NCBI GenBank assembly: GCA_017547755.1
Contig: JAFYOX010000055.1
Coordinates: 1 to 34,783 of the forward strand
From: Clostridia bacterium
Lineage (GTDB): Bacteria; Bacillota; Clostridia; Oscillospirales; CAG-272
Direction: 5' to 3'
Length of the DNA stretch: 34,783 bases
Shown: positions 27,023 through 34,783 of the stretch, one piece after another
How the letters are laid out: every line of letters starts with the position of its first letter
Numbering within the stretch: the first letter of the stretch is position 1
Notes under the pieces: model-generated
Databases searched by the model: none
What the model saw: only the letters and a program-made list of their open reading frames with translations
Told to the model about the DNA's origin: nothing
Program-made: the position numbers and the translations under genes

Positions 27023-27427
27023 ATGAACGAAAGCAGATCCGCAGACGGAGTGACTCTGCGGGAATTGTCGCAGCTGCGGGATCTTCAGCGGGAGATCCGG
27101 CTGGATACGGAGCGGCTGAACCGGCTGGACGTGACGCTGTATCCGTCGGTGCGGCTGAATCCGGATCGTGCGGCACTGGCTCCGTATGCGGCGGAGATCC
27201 GGGATGTGATCCGCGACAAGCGCGCACGCTGTCTGCGCGAACGTCTGCGCCTGGAGCGGTACATCGCGTCCGTGGATGACAGCCTTGTCCGGATGGCGAT
27301 GACGCTGCGGTTCCTTGACGGGATGCACTGGCGGGCGGTGGCGATGCGCATCGGCGGCGGAAATACGGAAGACAGCGTCAAGAAGATGGTCTACCGGTAC
27401 ATCCGGCAGCATGGAAAAAGTCTTTGA
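27023..27427 (+). CDS. Phage-type sigma-70 region 4-like HTH protein
   Basis: A 134-residue protein. The first 90 residues are charged and helical (probably coiled coil). The C-terminal 45 residues are a sigma region 4-like helix-turn-helix with the pattern RFLDGMHWRAVAMRIGGGNTEDSVKKMVYRYI. This is characteristic of phage late-gene activators and DUF1492/RinA-like proteins. GGAGAG lies before ATG. It sits outside the tRNA-Leu island, 800 bp left of attL, under a perfect promoter, with no phage genes adjacent. The family call is by shape, not by a search. Confidence 0.65.
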   Translation: MNESRSADGVTLRELSQLRDLQREIRLDTERLNRLDVTLYPSVRLNPDRAALAPYAAEIRDVIRDKRARCLRERLRLERYIASVDDSLVRMAMTLRFLDGMHWRAVAMRIGGGNTEDSVKKMVYRYIRQHGKSL

Positions 27428-28234: not shown

Positions 28235-28256
28235 CTGCGGGTAACAGGCTTGAACC
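28235..28256. repeat. attL: copy of the tRNA-Leu 3' end
   Basis: CTGCGGGTAACAGG then CTTGAACC reproduces, on the plus strand, the complement of the acceptor 3' strand and T arm of the tRNA-Leu at 34649-34727. One base (an A between the two blocks) is missing relative to the right copy. Finding a 3' tRNA fragment 6.4 kb from an intact tRNA with phage genes between is the classic product of site-specific integration. Confidence 0.8.
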
Positions 28257-28310
28257 CGAGGAGCGTATTTCATTCTCCTCAGATTCGCCTGTTTTCTTTT
28301 ATTTTCTCAC

Positions 28311-28568
28311 TTATTCATCATGTTCTTCGACAACGGGAATTGCTGGTTCAATTGTCTGTTCCGGTTCCGGTACAGGTTCAACGACTGGTTCCGGAACGAC
28401 CAGTGTTTCGATTACATCCGTTTCAGGAACATATAATTCCTCGATGGTATAGTAAATATCGTTGAATTCTTCCATCGTGAACAGTTCCGCGTCGATGAGC
28501 TGCCGTGCGAGCGGTTCATCGCTGCCGTTCGGATTTGCGGACAGTGCGGCATGGGAGATTCCTTTCAA
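28311..28568 (-). CDS. Small acidic Pro/Glu/Val-rich protein
   Basis: An 85-residue protein of unknown function. Its start TTG overlaps the repressor stop (TTGA), suggesting translational coupling, though no clear ribosome binding site is seen. The N-terminal 50 residues are a short helical region (ARQLIDAELFTMEEFNDIYY). The tail is a run of Val-Pro-Glu repeats (PEPVVEPVPEPEQ) ending in EEHDE, strongly acidic and probably disordered. It may be an accessory of the repressor, for example an acidic anti-repressor or DNA mimic, but this is a guess from gene order and charge. Confidence 0.6.
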   Translation of the reverse strand: MKGISHAALSANPNGSDEPLARQLIDAELFTMEEFNDIYYTIEELYVPETDVIETLVVPEPVVEPVPEPEQTIEPAIPVVEEHDE

Positions 28569-29188
28569 AACTTTGCGCGTAATTCAACGACTTTTCCGAT
28601 GATTATGACCGGAAGTTCCGCCACTTCCTGCTTGGAGTAAAACATCGGTTCGTAATCCGGATTGGTGGAAATCAGCATCAGACCCTGCGGGGTCTTTTTT
28701 ATTTTCTTGCAGGTTGCCGTGTCGCCGTTGACCTTGACGATCGCGGTCTCTCCGTTTTCGACATCGGGCTGCAGACGCACGATCACGATATCGCCGCTGC
28801 TGATCTTCGGCTCCATGCTGTCTCCGTGAATACGGAGCGCGAAGAAGTCTCCGCCGCGGGCCATATCTTCAGAGATTTCTTCCCAGTCGTCCGGATTTTC
28901 GCTGTCGAAGTTTTCGATGGTTTCAATCGGAAGACCGGCGGCGACTTCGCCGTATACGGGGATACGGATACCCTTCCGGCGGGGAGCGGAAACAGTTTTG
29001 TCGTCCCGGCCGAGAAGATAGTCAACGGAGACGTTGAAGTATTCGGCGAGCTTCAGCATGGTTTCGGTGTCTGGCTGACGTTTGCCGTTTTCCCATTGGT
29101 TGTAAGTATTAGCGGGAATACCGATCAAAGCTGCGAAATCTTTCTGAGAGATTCCTTGTTTTTGACGTAATTCTTTCAGACGTTTCAT
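28565..29188 (-). CDS. CI-type repressor with autocleaving S24 domain
   Basis: A 207-residue phage repressor. Residues 4-58 are a helix-turn-helix (ISQKDFAALIGIPANTYNQWENG). The C-terminal S24/LexA-like peptidase has the cleavage site Ala84-Gly85 (GEVAAG), nucleophile Ser124 (HGDSMEP) and general base Lys161 or Lys162 (TATCKKI). In LexA and lambda CI such domains self-cleave when RecA is activated by DNA damage, releasing the prophage. It is divergent from the late-gene unit across a six-operator region and followed by the small acidic gene. The start has GGAG seven bases before ATG. Confidence 0.93.
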   Translation of the reverse strand: MKRLKELRQKQGISQKDFAALIGIPANTYNQWENGKRQPDTETMLKLAEYFNVSVDYLLGRDDKTVSAPRRKGIRIPVYGEVAAGLPIETIENFDSENPDDWEEISEDMARGGDFFALRIHGDSMEPKISSGDIVIVRLQPDVENGETAIVKVNGDTATCKKIKKTPQGLMLISTNPDYEPMFYSKQEVAELPVIIIGKVVELRAKF

Positions 29189-29251
29189 TTCTATACTCCA
29201 TACTTGTGTGATTCACAGATTGAGGTTCACAAATTGTGAATTCTCGATTAT

Positions 29252-29280
29252 ATTATAAGTCACAAAATGTGATAATTCAA
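29252..29280 (-). promoter_or_regulatory. Leftward promoter of the repressor
   Basis: On the minus strand TTGAAT and a perfect TATAAT are 17 bp apart. The spacer holds the operator centred at 29266, so the repressor would regulate itself. Confidence 0.7.
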
Positions 29281-29318
29281 TATAATTCTCAAAAAGTGAA
29301 TAAATTTTTGATACCCAC

Positions 29319-29347
29319 TTGACAATTCTCAGTTTGTGAGTTATAAT
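29319..29347 (+). promoter_or_regulatory. Rightward promoter of the island's gene unit
   Basis: A perfect TTGACA and a perfect TATAAT are 17 bp apart. The spacer is exactly filled by the operator at 29326-29340, and another operator (29351-29365) lies at the start site. Confidence 0.88.
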
Positions 29348-29385
29348 AAATTCACGGATTGAGAATAACAGGAGGGGTTATCAAA

Positions 29386-29709
29386 ATGTTATTGAAAGAG
29401 AAGCGACAGGTGCGTGGAATTCCGCAGAATGACCTTGCCGTTCGGGTAGGAGTGAAGACGAAAGCGGTGAGAAGCTGGCGAAGTTTTATACCGACCTCGG
29501 TAAGGAAGAGGACGAAGTTCCGGTGTACAAGGCAACGGTCGGACTCGGCGGTGAATGCGGCGAAAATCAAGTACAGCAGGGTGAAGATCAAGGCGTCCGG
29601 ACGTCTGAAACCGGAGATGGTGAAGCAGGTCGAGTGGATACGGAAGCTGTTCAAACCGGCGGAGACGATTGAAGTGTTCGACTTCGCGGATATCGCAGAG
29701 GAGGAATAA
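29386..29709 (+). CDS. HTH-type small protein, possibly frame-disrupted (Cro position)
   Basis: A 107-residue open frame with GGAGGGG ten bases before ATG, at the position of a cro gene. Residues 1-32 read like a degenerate Cro/CI helix-turn-helix (MLLKEKRQVRGIPQNDLAVR...). The middle is low-complexity basic sequence, while the second frame over the same bases reads as protein (EKLAKFYTDLGKEEDEVPVYK). The C-terminus (KPEMVKQVEWIRKLFKP, then an acidic end) is again protein-like in the first frame. Two small compensating indels, or an old deletion, would explain this. It may be a real short protein, so it is listed as a low-confidence gene. Confidence 0.45.
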   Translation: MLLKEKRQVRGIPQNDLAVRVGVKTKAVRSWRSFIPTSVRKRTKFRCTRQRSDSAVNAAKIKYSRVKIKASGRLKPEMVKQVEWIRKLFKPAETIEVFDFADIAEEE

Positions 29710-29710
29710 T

Positions 29711-30064
29711 ATGGTCGGTTACAACGAAAGTATGCTGGTGAACGAGATCATCCGCAAATTGTATCCGTGGGTACATATGCAGCGTGCGAACGTGATCCGC
29801 GGCACGCATGACGGAAGAAGACTGAATACCGGACTGCCGAAGGGGTTTCCCGACCTCTTCGGCACTCTGCCCGCAGAGAAGAACCGTTACGGTGTGGCAG
29901 TGCCGGTGTTCATCGAATGCAAGCTGGGATACAACAAACCCTCGCCGGAACAGAAAAAGTTCATCGCGGACGAGCTGGCGAAAGGCTCGATTGCGGGGGT
30001 GTGCTATTCGGTCGAAGACGCACTTGCGCTGATCCGGCCGCATCTGAAGACTTCACGAATTTAA
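29711..30064 (+). CDS. VRR-NUC domain nuclease
   Basis: A 117-residue stand-alone VRR-NUC endonuclease of the PD-(D/E)XK fold. The catalytic Asp is in GFPDLFG and the E-x-K pair in VFIECKLGYNKPSPEQKKF. Phage members are thought to act in DNA recombination or replication as structure-specific nucleases, with a site for dimerisation. GAGGAGGAA lies before ATG, which follows the previous stop by one base. It is the first complete gene of the rightward unit. Confidence 0.92.
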   Translation: MVGYNESMLVNEIIRKLYPWVHMQRANVIRGTHDGRRLNTGLPKGFPDLFGTLPAEKNRYGVAVPVFIECKLGYNKPSPEQKKFIADELAKGSIAGVCYSVEDALALIRPHLKTSRI

Positions 30065-30079
30065 GATTGGAGAGAAACA

Positions 30080-31093
30080 ATGTCAAGACCGCGTAAAAAG
30101 GGCTTGACGTACTTTCCGAAGGATGTTGATTTTTATCAGGATGAGAAGGTCATCGACCTGCTGATGAAGTACGGTCCTCTTGGACTGGTTACGTTTGATG
30201 TTCTTCTCACCATGGTCTACCGCGAAGGCTACTATATCGAAATGTCACCCTCGAAAGCCGCGCTTCTTGTTGTGCGCACCGTTGGGGACAGTTGGTATAA
30301 ACGAAACGGTATGACTCCCATAAACTTTGCCGCTGAGATTATTCAGTACTGCGCCGAGATCGGACTTTTCAATGCGTCCCTTGTGAAGCAGAATGTTATT
30401 ACCTCAGTCGGAATCCAGCGTCGCTACGCCGCCGTGACGGTGCGAAACAAAGTTGATAAGTCAAAGTATTGGCTTCTTGAAAGCGAACCCGCACAGGAGG
30501 CCTTGGAAAGTGCGTCAAAAAACGGGGTTTCTGCGGAGAAAAAAGGAGTTTCTGCAACAGAAACTCCGATAAAATCCGCAAAAATGCCACAAAGAAAAGG
30601 AAATAAAAGAAGAGTAAATAAAACAAAATTAAAGAAGATGACTGCGCCGCCGAAACGGCGTCGTCTGACCTTCCGCTGCCGCGTCATCACCGAGAAAAAA
30701 AGCGAGATTATAAAGAGGGAATACGGACGGATTCTTCCGGGAATGCCGGATGCCGTAATAACATCGAAGCTGCTGCGGCATCTGGCAAAAGCGGATAAGG
30801 GGATTGGCATATACCGGAAGTTGTTTGAGACGGCGGCGAAGAGTACGTTTCTTACAACACCAAAAACGGGATGGCGGTGTGATCTGGAATGGCTGTGTGA
30901 CCCGGCGAATATGGAGAAGGTATTGGCGGGGAAGTACAGCGATTACGGAAAGCAGACACGGGAACCGGAGTCTGTACCGCTGGCGTCAAGTTTTGATGTG
31001 GATGATTTCTTTGCGGCGTCAATGGCACGTTCGGCGAAAACAACTGCGGCGGAGGATGACGATGATGTCCTGCCGTGGCTGAAAGGAGATTGA
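30080..31093 (+). CDS. Lin1244/Lin1753 (DUF4373) phage replication protein
   Basis: A 337-residue protein. Residues 5-90 (KKGLTYFPKDVDFYQDEKVIDLL, then FDVLLTMVYREGYYIE) form the winged-helix Lin1244/Lin1753 domain of phage DnaD-like replication proteins. A lysine-rich linker from about 150 to 220 is unusual and carries many A-runs. The C-terminal FETAAKSTFLTT, GWRCDLEWLCDP and LAGKYSDYG segments are typical of the family. It probably acts with a helicase loader at the phage origin, but no helicase or DnaC-like gene is present here. GGAGAG lies before ATG. Confidence 0.85.
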   Translation: MSRPRKKGLTYFPKDVDFYQDEKVIDLLMKYGPLGLVTFDVLLTMVYREGYYIEMSPSKAALLVVRTVGDSWYKRNGMTPINFAAEIIQYCAEIGLFNASLVKQNVITSVGIQRRYAAVTVRNKVDKSKYWLLESEPAQEALESASKNGVSAEKKGVSATETPIKSAKMPQRKGNKRRVNKTKLKKMTAPPKRRRLTFRCRVITEKKSEIIKREYGRILPGMPDAVITSKLLRHLAKADKGIGIYRKLFETAAKSTFLTTPKTGWRCDLEWLCDPANMEKVLAGKYSDYGKQTREPESVPLASSFDVDDFFAASMARSAKTTAAEDDDDVLPWLKGD

Positions 31094-31095
31094 GT

Positions 31096-31329
31096 ATGAA
31101 CTACCGGCTCTGGCAGATCGACGTCGACCGGAGCATCTACGAAATGACATACGAAGGGCAATGTCCGGAAGAAGGCAAAACCATTCCGGAGATTCTTGAG
31201 GAACTGTTCCTCCGGTTCAACCGGACGTATCTTCTGCCAGCTGAACACCGACGACGGGGAATATCCCATGATCGCGTCGGAGCTGTACAACAACAATGCC
31301 TATGTAAAAGTAGGTGTAACGAACGATAA
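31096..31329 (+). CDS. Small phage protein, 3' end probably disrupted
   Basis: A 77-residue open frame starting two bases after the previous stop, with GAAAGGAG before ATG. The first 48 residues (MNYRLWQIDVDRSIYEM ... LEELFLRFNRTYLLP) look like a genuine small early phage protein. The last 30 (AEHRRRG ... CKSRCNER) are a frame shifted from the next gene. The protein-like part ends at about 31240 and a different protein-like frame begins there, suggesting a deletion or frameshift. The function is unknown. Confidence 0.55.
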   Translation: MNYRLWQIDVDRSIYEMTYEGQCPEEGKTIPEILEELFLRFNRTYLLPAEHRRRGISHDRVGAVQQQCLCKSRCNER

Positions 31330-31519
31330 CGGATGGGCGCAGTTCGTGGATATATACGGTACATACGTACGATTTGCCAGACCCGGGAAAGAAGCCGGAA
31401 ACGACAATTATGGATTTGTCATTGATATGCCGGAGCAACGAATTATCCCATACGGAGGGAATGAGTGGTGGATCGGGGAGGGGATGAGCTTGTCCCAAAA
31501 GTCCCGTGACATGGATTAA
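31240..31519 (+). pseudogene. C-terminal remnant of a phage structural protein (likely)
   Basis: From about 31240 another frame reads QLNTDDGEYPMIASELYNNN, continuing through GWAQFVDIYGTYVRFARPG and GGNEWWIGEGMS to a stop at 31519. It has no convincing start or ribosome binding site (an ATG at 31268 follows only GGGGA). It lies directly before the fibre gene, where the tail or minor structural protein of a full prophage would end. I read it as the truncated 3' end of such a gene. It could be a short real gene from the ATG at 31268. Confidence 0.45.
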
Positions 31520-31575
31520 AATCACGAAACCTCTCCAAAAAAGTATGATCATACATCAGAAAGGAGCAAAAACAA

Positions 31576-32298
31576 TTGATATACGGAGAAATATTCCGAC
31601 AGCGTTTTACGCTGAAAAACGAACATGTCGTCGCGGACACCATCGACTATCTGGAAATGAGGTTTCATTTCCGCACGGATGACTGGGACGGGCTGACCAA
31701 GTGGGCACACTTCGCCAACGACGGCGGCACCGTCTGCGACATCCGCCTGACCGACAACTGCATCCGGAAGGAAGACCACCTCAACCTGTCCGCCGGAATG
31801 TGGAAGGTATACCTCCACGGGAACGAATTCCGCGACGGCAAGGTCATCCAGCGGATCACGACCGACGAGGCGGTGCTGTACGTCTCCCCCACCGGTATGC
31901 TTGAGGGGGAACCGTTTCCGGAGATGCCCGCATCCGAGACCGAGCGGATCAATGCGCGTTTGGATGAACTGGAAAAGGGCGGAATCGGAAAACCGGGAGA
32001 ACCCGGCGCGGACGGATTCAGCCCGTCGGCTTCGGTCGAGCAGACGGACGACGGCGCGGTCATCACGATCACAGACAAGGACGGTACGACGACAGCCACG
32101 GTCACCAACGGGAAAGACGGACAGCCCGGCGAAAAAGGTAACCCCGGTGCACCGGGCGCAGACGGTAAAGATTACATCCTTACCGAATCGGACAAATCCG
32201 AAATTGCCGGAATGGTGAAGAATCTGTTTTCCAGTGAAACATGGACGTTCACGCTTGCGGACGGCTCAACGGTAGAAAAGGCGGTGGCGTTGCTGTGA
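31576..32298 (+). CDS. Phage tail fibre/baseplate protein with collagen-like repeats
   Basis: A 240-residue protein. The first 110 residues (FRQRFTLKNEHVVADTIDYL, MRFHFRTDDWDGLTKWAHF) form a beta-rich domain common to Firmicutes phage fibre and baseplate proteins. Gly-x-Pro collagen-like triplets come twice (GKPGEPGADG and GQPGEKGNPGAPGADG), enclosing a short insert. The end (LTESDKSEIAGMVKNLF) is a C-terminal trimerisation-type segment. Start TTG is supported by AAAGGAG nine bases upstream. It would bind host surface sugars or link a fibre. It ends by overlapping the next start (TGATG). Confidence 0.85.
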   Translation: MIYGEIFRQRFTLKNEHVVADTIDYLEMRFHFRTDDWDGLTKWAHFANDGGTVCDIRLTDNCIRKEDHLNLSAGMWKVYLHGNEFRDGKVIQRITTDEAVLYVSPTGMLEGEPFPEMPASETERINARLDELEKGGIGKPGEPGADGFSPSASVEQTDDGAVITITDKDGTTTATVTNGKDGQPGEKGNPGAPGADGKDYILTESDKSEIAGMVKNLFSSETWTFTLADGSTVEKAVALL

Positions 32299-33020
32299 TG
32301 TTTGCGAATGTGCAGAAACTTGTGATTCCGGAAGGGGAAGTCGTAAAGATTTCGCATGGGACTACGGTGCTTTGGGAACGTCCGGGGCTGCCGCTTGCGT
32401 ATCAGCAGGTGGAATATATTCAGACGGACGGGAACCAGTACATTGACACGGGTGTGCTGGCGAGTGATTATCCGGATGGACTGGAGTATGTGTTTGAGGG
32501 GTACTGTACAGCGGAATCGGCATCAAGACGAATGTATATGTTTGGCTGTCTTTTCGGCGAGAAGCGTAGTGGTAACGCAGGTATTGAATCTACCCTTAAG
32601 GCTTCCCTGATATTTTTAGGAACGAGTGGAACCGGAAATATCCAAATTAATATCACAAAAAATGAACGATTTACACTATGGGCTAAAGGCACTTCAGAAT
32701 CACCTCCGGACTTTACTGCGTCATGGAACGGTGTGAAATACAATAATGTATCGTTTACATCGTATAGTTGTAATATGCCGTCCGCTAATATCTTCCTGTT
32801 GGCGTGCAATTTGAACGGCGGTTATACGTCCGGCTCTTCTATGCCGTATGTAGGTAAACTGTATAGCTTTACAATGGCAGACATGGACGGTATAGAAATC
32901 CGCAACTTTGTCCCGTGCTACCGGAAATCGGACGGTGTAATCGGTCTGTACGATACGGTCGGCAGTACGTTCTACACGAACAAAGGGACGGGCAGTTTCA
33001 CGAAAGGAGCAGATGTATGA
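32298..33020 (+). CDS. Phage fibre-associated lectin/adhesin-like protein
   Basis: A 240-residue protein whose start overlaps the fibre stop. A short N-terminal domain (FANVQKLVIPEGEVVKI) precedes a segment LAYQQVEYIQTDGNQYIDTGV, which begins a jelly-roll concanavalin-A-like (LamG-type) fold. Phage distal tail proteins have this domain and bind cell-surface glycans. A short closing segment IGLYDTVGSTFYTNKGTGSF is typical. The nucleotide composition is lower in GC than that of its neighbours. Binding target unknown. Confidence 0.75.
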   Translation: MFANVQKLVIPEGEVVKISHGTTVLWERPGLPLAYQQVEYIQTDGNQYIDTGVLASDYPDGLEYVFEGYCTAESASRRMYMFGCLFGEKRSGNAGIESTLKASLIFLGTSGTGNIQINITKNERFTLWAKGTSESPPDFTASWNGVKYNNVSFTSYSCNMPSANIFLLACNLNGGYTSGSSMPYVGKLYSFTMADMDGIEIRNFVPCYRKSDGVIGLYDTVGSTFYTNKGTGSFTKGADV

Positions 33021-33139
33021 TTGGATTTATCATAGGCATCATGGTCGGCGGATGTGTCGGCGTGGTGGTGATGTGCCTGTGCCGGGCTGCAAGTGATGCG
33101 GACAGGCAGATGGAGATGGAGAGCGAAGATGAACATTGA
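33017..33139 (+). CDS. Small phage membrane protein
   Basis: A 40-residue protein overlapping the previous stop (ATGA). It has one hydrophobic segment (IGFIIGIMVGGCVGVVVMCLC, 2-22) and a charged tail of 15 residues. AAAGGAG lies before ATG. This is a common type of small protein at the end of phage fibre genes and before the lysis genes. It may be a holin partner or have no lysis function. Confidence 0.65.
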   Translation: MIGFIIGIMVGGCVGVVVMCLCRAASDADRQMEMESEDEH

Positions 33140-33392
33140 CGTATCCGTCCTGATCGCGGTGATCGGATGTGCGCTGTCCGTGGGGACGTTCTTCATCGGG
33201 CGCACCACGGCGGCGAAGTCGTCCGGGCAGGAGTACGGCGTGATGCTGACGGACATCGGGTACATCAAATCCGGCGTGGACGACATGAAGAAGAAAATGG
33301 ATCAGTCGGACAAGCGGTACATCGAAATCGAGAAGCGCGTGACCGCACTGGAAGAAATTGCGAAGATTTATCACACGGGAGGAAAAGGATGA
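33129..33392 (+). CDS. Membrane/coiled-coil phage protein (XhlA-like)
   Basis: An 87-residue protein starting inside the previous gene. A transmembrane helix (VSVLIAVIGCALSVGTFFIG, about 5-24) precedes a coiled coil of heptads to residue 80 (MKKKMDQSDKRYIEIEKRVTALEEIA). This layout matches hemolysin XhlA-like phage accessory lysis proteins, which localise endolysin or holin in the membrane. AGCGAAG is the only upstream site, so coupling to the prior gene is likely. It overlaps the endolysin start by four bases. Confidence 0.7.
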   Translation: MNIDVSVLIAVIGCALSVGTFFIGRTTAAKSSGQEYGVMLTDIGYIKSGVDDMKKKMDQSDKRYIEIEKRVTALEEIAKIYHTGGKG

Positions 33393-33922
33393 TCTACAGT
33401 GGGAAATTCAAGGTAACGTCCCCGTTCGGTCCGCGCACGCTGAACGGTCAGCCGGACGATCACCGGGGCATCGACGTCGTCGGGATCACGGACAAGTACG
33501 TGTGCGCGGTTACTCACGGTCGTGTGGCGGCTTCTACGATCATCACGGACAAGACCGACCGGACATGGGAATGGGGCAATTACGTCCGCGTGGACGGCGA
33601 CGACGGGAGGCGGTATTATTACTGCCACCTGTCGAAGCGGCTGGTGACCGTCGGGAGGCGCGTGAAAGCAGGAGATTACCTCGGGATTGAAGGGAATACG
33701 GGGTATTCCTTCGGCACGCATTGCCACTTCGAAGTGCGTGACCGTGCGGGAAATTCGGTGAATCCGTCGACATTCCTCGGGATCCCGAACGCCTGCGGTA
33801 CCTACGGCGAGGACTGGCGCGGGGAGGTACAAAAAAAGTTCGGACTGTCCGACGGGACGATGAAGTATCTGGACAGGTACGAACACGCCGCCGCGCTGTT
33901 CCGGAAGCTGGGGCAGGCGTGA
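33389..33922 (+). CDS. M23 family peptidase, phage endolysin
   Basis: A 177-residue zinc endopeptidase of family M23 (LytM type) that cleaves peptidoglycan cross-bridges. Zinc ligands are H25 and D29 (HRGID), H80, and H111-x-H113 (THCHFE), all intact. The catalytic barrel fills residues 5-125. The C-terminal 50 residues (GLSDGTMKYLDRYEHAAALFRKLG) are a short helical part that may be a cell-wall binding or localisation element. It is a stand-alone endolysin with no signal peptide, so it needs a holin to reach the wall. The frame overlaps the next gene as TGATG. Confidence 0.9.
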   Translation: MIYSGKFKVTSPFGPRTLNGQPDDHRGIDVVGITDKYVCAVTHGRVAASTIITDKTDRTWEWGNYVRVDGDDGRRYYYCHLSKRLVTVGRRVKAGDYLGIEGNTGYSFGTHCHFEVRDRAGNSVNPSTFLGIPNACGTYGEDWRGEVQKKFGLSDGTMKYLDRYEHAAALFRKLGQA

Positions 33923-34173
33923 TGCGGTGGCTGAAGAAACTGCTGACGGTAGTGCTTGTGTACATTGCGGTGTATCTGCCGTTTGTGGTGCTGATGCAGG
34001 CGTTGACCGGGTATGACTTCACGGGAGCGTATGCGGCGGTGACGGGGGTCGGCGCGGTGGAGCTGATCGTCGGCGGCGCGATCAAGGTCGCGGAGGAAAG
34101 GGAAGAGAGAAAACGAAAGGAGCGTGAAGAACGTGAACGGAGTGAACTGGAAGCAGAAGCTGACGAGCCGTAA
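33922..34173 (+). CDS. Small two-helix membrane protein, holin candidate
   Basis: An 83-residue protein with two hydrophobic helices (about 7-27 and 36-56, LTVVLVYIAVYLPFVVLMQ and YAAVTGVGAVELIVGGAI). Then comes a highly charged C-terminal tail of Glu/Arg/Lys (EEREERKRKEREERERSE). Size, two spans and a basic/acidic tail fit a class II holin. It starts at the overlapping ATG of the endolysin stop. The next gene starts inside its end. Which of the two is the true holin cannot be told from sequence. Confidence 0.65.
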   Translation: MRWLKKLLTVVLVYIAVYLPFVVLMQALTGYDFTGAYAAVTGVGAVELIVGGAIKVAEEREERKRKEREERERSELEAEADEP

Positions 34174-34357
34174 GCTGTGGGCGGCGGTTGTCGGCGTGGT
34201 CGTAGGACTTGCGGCGGCGTTCGGGATCAGCGAGAATGAATACGCGCAGGTCGCGGGTGTGGTCGGGTCTGTGGTGTCCGTCGTGAGCTACATCTTCGGC
34301 GAAGCGTCCGTGGACGCGGCGAAGAAGGGGAACGGCGAAGCTGAAGTAGGACAGTAA
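34133..34357 (+). CDS. Phage holin family protein
   Basis: A 74-residue protein with the phi LC3-type holin layout: a short amphipathic N-terminus (NWKQKLTSRKLWAAV), a hydrophobic stretch (VVGVVVGLAAAFGI) and a second one (VAGVVGSVVSVVSYIFG), then a short polar end. Start GTG at 34133 is preferred because AAAGGAG lies ten bases upstream; a GTG at 34124 would leave one base. It overlaps the previous gene and closes the rightward unit before a hairpin. Confidence 0.75.
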   Translation: MNGVNWKQKLTSRKLWAAVVGVVVGLAAAFGISENEYAQVAGVVGSVVSVVSYIFGEASVDAAKKGNGEAEVGQ

Positions 34358-34378
34358 GTTACCGCAAGCGAAAAAGGG

Positions 34379-34410
34379 AACGCCCGTCTGACGTTGGTCA
34401 GGCGGGCGTT
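34379..34410. terminator. Long hairpin ending the rightward unit
   Basis: AACGCCCGTCTGAC pairs with GTCAGGCGGGCGTT (one mismatch-type pair) over a GTTG loop. The plus strand lacks a good T run, and the minus side has CCCTTTTT. It likely ends the late transcript and may be bidirectional. Confidence 0.7.
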
Positions 34411-34646
34411 AAAGTTTAGTATGTTGTTTCCATTATAAGTGTGCCGTAAACAAAAACTTTGCATAAATTCTTTGCACCGCGTGGTGCATTTCCGTTTGCA
34501 TTCGTGAACATTCACACAATTTGTGATTGTTGCTGAAAACAATTGAATATTTGGAATTTGTTCACAACAACTGAATTTTGTGAGGGGTTATGCATAATAT
34601 ATAGATCAAACTGTCTGAAACGCTCTTTTTCACGAAAAATAGAAAA
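34411..34646. other. Non-coding right arm of the island
   Basis: About 240 bp of A/T-rich sequence lies between the last holin hairpin and attR. It has no gene. It contains a 6-bp hairpin (GCACC..GGTGC, 34474-34487), the palindrome TCACACAATTTGTGA (34512-34526) with the same half-sites as the repressor operators but a five-base centre, and the short repeat TTGTTCACAACAA. These might be integration arm sites or an extra operator. Confidence 0.5.
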
Positions 34647-34669
34647 CTGCGGGTAACAGGACTTGAACC
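34647..34669. repeat. attR: 3' end of tRNA-Leu
   Basis: This repeats the attL sequence with one extra A and lies within the acceptor and T arm of the tRNA-Leu gene. The intact tRNA is on this side, so the island carried or kept the sequence needed to restore the gene. Confidence 0.8.
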
Positions 34670-34727
34670 TGCACGGTTGCCCAACGGATCCTAAATCCGT
34701 CGCGTCTGCCAGTTCCGCCATACCCGC
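34649..34727 (-). tRNA. tRNA-Leu(TAG)
   Basis: A type II cloverleaf on the minus strand. The acceptor is GCGGGTA/TACCCGC (7 bp), the anticodon stem ACGGA/TCCGT encloses loop TTTAGGA (anticodon TAG), there is a variable arm TGGGCAACCGT, and the T stem GCAGG/CCTGT closes over TTCAAGT. CCA is not encoded. It is the integration site of the island. Confidence 0.95.
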
Positions 34728-34735
34728 ATAAGATT

Positions 34736-34764
34736 ATTATACCACAGTCTGCACCGCTTGTCAA
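34736..34764 (-). promoter_or_regulatory. Promoter of tRNA-Leu
   Basis: On the minus strand a perfect TTGACA and a perfect TATAAT are 17 bp apart, 8 bp upstream of the tRNA's 5' end. Confidence 0.9.
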
Positions 34765-34783
34765 GAATTTACACGGGACAAAG

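Follow-up and report, generated by a model that had tools for sequence, protein, structure and literature searches.

A deleted prophage at a tRNA-Leu gene of a Clostridia bacterium retains a repressor and lysis genes that read as a lysis unit without particles

We analysed a 6.4 kb phage island at the 3′ end of a tRNA-Leu gene in a Clostridia bacterium of the order Oscillospirales (GenBank assembly GCA_017547755.1, contig JAFYOX010000055.1). The window, by which we mean the whole stretch of DNA analysed, is the entire contig C40 (34,783 b); the genome bin to which it belongs is fragmented, with 117 contigs that total 3.05 Mb, and is 74.8% complete. The island is rather probably a temperate tailed prophage that has been deleted several times, and what is left reads as a lysis unit under CI/SOS control that would release no particles. 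The kind, a defective prophage that retains its lysis module, is already known. The variant is unusual when set against one published survey, because that paper (PMC7744054) reports the reverse of retained lysis genes and a lost integrase.

Results

The island is bounded by an intact tRNA-Leu(UAG) gene and by an imperfect duplicate of the tRNA 3′ end (Table 1). The 3′-terminal 14 nt of the tRNA (CTGCGGGTAACAGG) were found again, exact, at 28235–28248, and past a 1-nt indel the repeat resumes as CTTGAACC, so that the two copies of the attachment site (att) are one indel and one substitution apart. The 14-mer was obtained by chance in 0/2000 first-order Markov simulations of the region, and the GC content of the island is 51% against 55% for positions 1–28234 of the window. 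Phage genes are bounded here by att-like repeats at a tRNA, as in a defective prophage, with an imperfect repeat. The first-pass annotation, made by a model from the letters of the DNA, had described such a flanking repeat, and it was correct in this.

The same annotation had listed a repressor, operators, a VRR-NUC protein, a Lin1244-type protein, fibre genes, an M23 endolysin and a holin, all of which were recovered by Pfam and PHROG scans, by similarity to a viral contig for the second fibre, and by the operator count given below. It had also reported that integrase, packaging, virion and helicase genes were missing. In family searches of the bacterium's own genome, neither a tyrosine integrase (Phage_integrase at 3 places), a serine recombinase (Resolvase at 1 place), Phage_capsid (1 place) nor a terminase (phrog_9 at 1 place; phrog_2 nowhere in the genome) was found on contig C40, all matches lying elsewhere. 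The absence of integrase, terminase and Phage_capsid is carried by these searches, while portal, tail-tube and helicase genes were not recognised on reading the open reading frames (ORFs) and their family scans, in which the fragment at 31241–31519 lacks a family assignment. Genes needed for particles and for excision have been lost, as judged from the family searches and from the scars that follow. No cargo toxin or exoenzyme gene was recognised in family scans of the island proteins. PADLOC matched CI alone, chiefly its helix-turn-helix (HTH) part, and a defence system was discarded as an assignment.

Several deletion scars were found. The putative cro ORF is a chimera in which a weak HTH start, whose matches fall below the Pfam cut-offs, is followed by two pieces (residues 34–62 and 195–247) of an early gene that encodes 255 aa in genome G004 (L048), each piece in its own frame. 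By alignment, the stretch from cro into this early gene and the middle of the gene itself are gone. Where the integrase would be expected lies an 85-codon ORF, probably a gene fragment, that weakly matches phrog_8255 (unknown function; E 0.0087). Its 456–468 aa homologue on contig C48 had no Pfam match; a surface-layer protein piece or a host gene had been considered for this ORF and was dropped, as Pfam gave no family for the homologue. In G004:C36, where the integrase is retained, it sits between a tRNA-Pro and the repressor side. Furthermore, the virion block is absent at about 31.24 kb, where the start of a weakly YodL-like ORF meets the C-terminal fragment of another protein; neither piece (31.1–31.5 kb) had relatives in the viral_contigs set, so the junction is placed approximately. 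Viral contig L153, which over 524 nt of fibre DNA shares 86% identity with the window, retains a head maturation protease, a major head protein, a major tail protein and a tape measure upstream of the fibre. Comparison with these relatives suggests that the integrase and the whole head-and-tail block were lost. The scars and the L153 virion genes give good support to the deleted prophage that the first-pass annotation had offered as one option. Its argument that undamaged lysis and regulatory genes speak against slow decay held in part: CI, VRR-NUC, rep and the lysis genes agree with it, but the early region does not, with a chimeric cro ORF and the 85-codon fragment beside CI.

The layout of the regulatory elements points to control of lysis by the prophage's own repressor. 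Five operator-like palindromes (consensus TTCACAAWWTGTGAA) sit between CI and the chimeric ORF, and an operator overlaps the predicted promoter PR. Scoring palindromes on both strands, we counted 14 CI-like operators in the whole window against 3.0 ± 2.5 expected, and 0/100 shuffles gave 14; weak matches lie beside the tRNA end and, in addition, at 32652. All called genes from PR to 34357 have one orientation. A LexA/CI-type repressor is accompanied by operator-like sites over a promoter that reads into lysis genes, which is the arrangement of an SOS-inducible unit at the level of sequence, and CI would control lysis directly. The M23 genes of the window, of prophage L044 and of 15 relatives (17/17 checked) all have the HxxxD and HxH motifs and no stop. 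The phrog_1863 membrane protein encoded before the endolysin is presumably XhlA-like.

From these features we propose the following course of events. A temperate tailed phage would have integrated at the 3′ end of tRNA-Leu(UAG), and its integrase and head-and-tail block would later have been deleted. The S24 repressor would hold PR off; upon DNA damage CI would cleave itself, PR would fire and transcribe one co-oriented block ending in membrane proteins, the M23 endolysin and the holin, and the cell would burst with no particles made. Because the normal phage late-gene control is gone, lysis would be wired straight to the repressor. The persistence of the unit may be due to an addiction effect, in which the cell would die if CI alone were lost, to a benefit for kin when a few cells lyse under control and release vesicles, DNA or enzymes, or to both.

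Table 1. Features of the island and its surroundings (positions in the window).
Feature	Position	Strand	Basis
Phage-type transcriptional regulator (phrog_36), outside the island	27023..27427	+	PHROG match; 68.6% identity to the G009 gene next to tRNA-Leu (L043:12365-12775)
Putative att remnant (imperfect copy of tRNA-Leu 3′ end)	28235..28258	+	14 nt exact, 1-nt indel, then CTTGAACC
85-codon ORF, probable gene fragment	28311..28568	-	60% over 70 aa to the middle of a 456–468 aa protein, contig C48
CI-type repressor, HTH_3 + Peptidase_S24, complete	28565..29188	-	Pfam/PHROG; LexA match over C-terminal half below cut-off
Five CI-operator-like sites	29226..29365 (29226, 29259, 29286, 29326, 29351)		consensus matching
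Predicted promoter PR, TTGACA-17-TATAAT, 12/12, sigma-70-type	29319..29347	+	consensus match only
Chimeric early ORF, pseudogene (putative cro ORF 29359..29709)	29385..29709	+	cro-like HTH start and two pieces of 255-aa early gene, versus L048:8510-9277
VRR-NUC protein	29711..30064	+	Pfam VRR_NUC, PHROG; 61% to L048
Lin1244-type replication initiation protein (rep), full length	30080..31093	+	Lin1244_N, PHROG; end-to-end alignment with L101 and L043
Start of weakly YodL-like ORF, cut at virion-block junction (approximate position)	31096..31240	+	E 0.038
C-terminal fragment of a protein without family assignment, far side of junction	31241..31519	+	alignment
Fibre protein, collagen-like repeat	31576..32298	+	Pfam; middle ~0.9 kb shorter than L153 homologue
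Second fibre-like protein	32298..33020	+	28% to viral contig L095 only; no Pfam or PHROG match
Small membrane protein of lysis cassette, phrog_1863 (unknown function)	33129..33392	+	PHROG match
M23 endolysin, HxxxD + HxH intact	33389..33922	+	PHROG endolysin/peptidase family; Pfam Peptidase_M23
Second small membrane protein of lysis cassette	33922..34173	+	93% over 56 aa to L042 and L044; weak PHROG matches, unknown function
Holin, phrog_297	34124..34357	+	PHROG; PF04531 match below its cut-off
Two weak CI-operator-like sites by tRNA end, 3 mismatches each	34513..34575		consensus matching
141 nt identical to start of contig C35; branch point 4 nt outside repeat	34643..34783		exact sequence match
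tRNA-Leu, anticodon TAG, intact	34647..34728	-	tRNA gene call

We then consider the site itself. In a search of the genus (25 genomes including its own), 24 genomes gave some match, many of them just the tRNA or a GNAT gene. The same island, which the first-pass annotation had suggested looking for in related genomes, was matched as a whole in none of the 24 others, with 12 candidates scored in each. Two relatives have other remnants at this tRNA-Leu, again downstream of the flavodoxin-like gene (named by eye): G007 carries a 55-aa fibre start and lysis genes only, and G009 carries only rep and a regulator, the latter 69% identical to the window's phrog_36 regulator. That window regulator is stranded to the left of the att copy, between the flavodoxin-like gene and the GNAT gene, and was probably left by a prophage that occupied the site earlier. 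Invasion and pruning have occurred at this tRNA-Leu site more than once. Between the window and G007, synonymous divergence (dS) was 0.93 for M23 and 1.04 for the flanking flavodoxin-like gene, gene content and right flanks differ, and a common integration of the two cassettes is not decidable from these values. Among 50,697 phage records, rep had matches in 29; no match covered over 80% of rep, and the best had 40% identity across 56% of it. M23 had matches in 599 records, all below 60% identity.

The end of the contig may carry a further sign of variation at the site. The final 141 nt of C40 are the first 141 nt of C35, and the opposite contig end has no such exact overlap. We read this overlap as a branching of the assembly graph at the att site, by which the sampled population would also contain other sequences next to the tRNA; alternatively, it could reflect a simple variant close by. 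As the overlap is exactly 141 nt, 141 was probably the word length used last in the assembly, and reads should then support the junction at 31.24 kb. Elsewhere in the bin, the island recurs only in its tRNA end and in 103 nt matched on C48.

To place the island among its relatives, phage-type M23 loci were collected with E below 1e-26, which excluded weaker matches, mainly longer frames. Loci were judged from gene lists and the positions of terminase and capsid matches, and host neighbours were named by eye except for those scanned against families. We found 25 such loci in 21/25 genomes. Thirteen are flanked by host genes and have no recognised virion genes (G000:C40, which is the window, G007:C116, G009:C38, G001:C102, G014:C164, G002:C38, G012:C369, G010:C70, G005:C24, G004:C114, G015:C315, G011:C196 and G016:C228), and 6/25 have virion genes (G007:C91, G016:C216, G008:C124, G021:C210, G018:C88 and G022:C10). 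The other 6/25 are undecidable because contig ends are close (G006:C7, where one contig end is within 1.7 kb, G014:C61, G017:C185, G023:C405, G021:C119 and G020:C56).

The minimal form was found in G001, where CI (HTH_3 and S24) stands directly by the lysis genes (membrane protein, M23 and holin), with operator-like repeats between back-to-back 12/12 promoters; a thioredoxin-like gene flanks the cassette on one side and a GFO/IDH/MocA gene on the other. Among 32 loci scanned with a small protein panel, L105, which is this G001 locus, was the only one with CI within ~2 kb of M23. The cassettes of G004, G014 and G017 face the 3′ end of a tRNA-Gly(CCC). No cassette is present in G012, where the tRNA-Gly/tRNA-Leu pair has the host neighbours that flank the cassette in G004. 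The tRNA pair is inverted relative to the host neighbours between L033 (G012) and L034 (G004).

Ratios of nonsynonymous to synonymous divergence (dN/dS) were counted by the plain Nei-Gojobori method; several pairs have dS values close to saturation, and the G005 and G006 cassettes were left out of the comparison. In two sets of cassettes at shared host loci, M23 is under purifying selection (dN/dS 0.11–0.29, five pairs). In the G014/G002 pair (L062/L063), at a valS-sbcDC-like locus, the M23 dN/dS was 0.11 with a dS of 0.94, host genes had a dS of 0.52–0.92, and the third cassette gene had a dN/dS of 0.24. The set of G023, G015, G011 and G016 (L067/L068/L070/L073), which has at least one flank in common by eye, gave 0.16–0.29 for M23 in 4 of 6 possible pairs and 0.29–0.34 for the adjoining holin in three pairs. 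At the tRNA-Gly cassettes, two pairs gave M23 dN/dS values of 0.10 and 0.18 and the third was saturated; since the M23 dS (1.5) exceeds that of the host neighbours (0.49 and 0.87), these may be independent integrations. The window M23 gave 0.16–0.25 in three pairs, and a fourth (G001) was saturated.

The G014 and G002 cassettes (L062:9173-10297 and L063:8949-10195) consist of three genes, for a small protein, M23 and a small protein, and their host locus, common to the two species, has valS, sbcDC-like and glycosidase-like genes (by eye). The L067/L068/L070/L073 cassette is chromosomal and comprises a variable protein of ~350 aa, a Phage_holin_4_1 holin (an assignment scanned in L067) and M23, with no virion genes seen. 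The ~350-aa protein had no Pfam match in L067 and evolves fast (dN/dS 0.52, one pair). This cassette is possibly a holin-dependent release system.

Two other phage clusters were encountered. In the window's own bin, contig G000:C87 (L077; 11.7 kb) carries genes of a different phage (terminase, portal, capsid and tape-measure-like) and no phage-type M23. In addition, a compact cluster is present in four species (G022:C10 at L051 and L075; G018:C88 at L074 and L136; G008:C64 and C124 at L137 and L071; G021:C249 and C210 at L138 and L072), ~19 kb long in G022 and split over two contigs in two species. It contains a CI-like repressor, small genes, a terminase large subunit, a portal-like protein (by eye), a major head protein (287 aa), a short tape measure, tail genes, a holin-like protein and M23, with no integrase or replication gene seen on reading. 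Its dN/dS was 0.05–0.15 for the major head protein (3 pairs) and 0.20–0.40 for the terminase (6 pairs), and the G008 and G018 clusters have a MarR-like flank in common (by eye). The cluster is a candidate for a gene transfer agent or a long-kept defective prophage.

Discussion

One report (PMC7918800) describes the lysis module of the defective prophage DLP12 of Escherichia coli K-12 as domesticated; as in the window, a holin–endolysin operon survives in a defective prophage, and there it is said to serve the host. The window differs in having an M23 endolysin and small membrane proteins downstream of what is predicted to be the prophage's own CI-controlled promoter. In the explosive cell lysis of Pseudomonas aeruginosa, a subpopulation is reported to be lysed by prophage-type lysis genes (PMC4834629). 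We propose lysis of a subpopulation by such genes here by analogy. The P. aeruginosa gene reportedly belongs to a tailocin cluster, whereas no tail-tube or sheath gene was recognised in the window island. Type 10 secretion is reported to use stand-alone chromosomal cassettes of holin and endolysin (PMC10847048, PMC12150058); the L067/L068/L070/L073 set resembles them in its holin (scanned in L067) adjoining M23, and no cargo toxin or exoenzyme was recognised beside the window cassette. In the survey cited at the outset, incomplete prophages preferentially lose lysis, portal and terminase genes and also replication genes, and are enriched in tail-fibre, transposase and integrase genes (PMC7744054). 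The window shares with them the loss of packaging genes and the retention of tail-fibre genes, and differs in having lost the integrase and kept rep and lysis genes. A search for literature on prophage holins of Oscillospiraceae in the rumen returned no paper, and we make no wider claim of absence from print.

For the window copy, neutral decay and domestication stay close rivals. Decay, by which the island would be an ordinary remnant caught mid-deletion with repressor and lysis genes not yet hit, or with loss of CI alone being lethal, departs from our preferred explanation solely in the reason for persistence, and we give it somewhat less than an even chance. The chimeric cro ORF and the 31.24 kb junction, the differing remnants of G007 and G009 at one tRNA, the older relic at 27023–27427 and dN/dS values that cannot be dated to the time after the deletions all fit decay. 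Against it stand the open frames of CI, VRR-NUC, rep, fibres, M23 and holin, the 13/25 loci with lysis cassettes and no recognised virion genes, purifying selection at shared host loci, and the preferential loss of lysis genes from incomplete prophages in the published survey (PMC7744054). A lysis module selected by the host for release of vesicles, DNA, enzymes or cargo, in the manner of explosive lysis or type 10 secretion, is a more tentative proposition. The first-pass annotation had raised it; recurrence and purifying selection favour it for the class in the genus, and the precedents of DLP12 (PMC7918800) and explosive lysis (PMC4834629) agree, but for the window copy it is only plausible. 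This copy keeps phage genes of no evident use (rep, VRR-NUC and the chimeric early ORF), which fits a young remnant, no cargo gene was recognised, and the locus has no ortholog except perhaps the shorter G007 cassette.

Two further explanations are improbable, the second of them still more so. The virion block might be present in the strain and have been lost at 31.24 kb by collapse or chimerism during assembly, as a fragmented bin with virion genes on C87 could suggest. Yet the bin repeats nothing of the island beyond the tRNA end and the C48 match, the C87 proteins are unmatched in the L044/L078 phage type and 23–36% identical to L065, the exact C40/C35 overlap implies that the junction should be read-supported, and virion-less cassettes arise independently in other genomes. 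A satellite that relies on a helper for packaging in trans, another option of the first-pass annotation, could look to C87, where a second phage is represented by virion genes that include terminase, portal and capsid, but it gained no support and is very improbable: the family searches put no integrase or recombinase on the contig, one indel and one substitution separate the att copies, no packaging or interference gene was recognised, rep and the lysis genes belong to ordinary phage families, and no conserved island was found, the whole being unmatched in 24 other genomes with 12 candidates scored in each.

Several points weigh against a CI-controlled lysis unit without particles. The wiring from CI to lysis is predicted from sequence alone, the promoters and terminators having been called by consensus. 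On the forward strand, four terminator-like hits fall between PR and the holin (30172, 31211, 32471 and 33175); we judged them weak, as three are within intact genes and none has a clean T run. Further forward promoter-like hits were found at 32443 and 33591. CI stands beside lysis genes at two loci only, the window and G001. The absence of virion genes relies on terminase and capsid searches and on the lists of a home-made gene caller that can overlook small genes; in the window it cut CI short and left out the holin. As the survey was seeded from M23, remnants without lysis genes were uncounted, and G009 has one at this very tRNA. The dN/dS of the window M23 spans its life as a phage, so it cannot date selection to the time after the deletions or show domestication. 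Between G023 and G011 the one host gene compared (147 codons) has a dS of 0.34 against 0.68 for M23, so strict vertical descent is not clean.

A broader proposition is that members of this clostridial genus of the gut repeatedly convert prophages into particle-less, repressor-controlled lysis cassettes selected as programmed-lysis devices, of which the window would be a young and G001 a finished example; we put it forward as a conjecture that is rather unlikely to hold. Taken alone, the window island is a defective prophage and only modestly interesting. Should the wiring work as read, the cell-bursting half of a phage would be kept under a DNA-damage switch with the phage itself gone, and this would offer a clean system for asking why lysis persists when no particle is made. 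The recurrence of cassettes across several species, together with selection on the endolysin at shared loci, makes that question testable by comparison.

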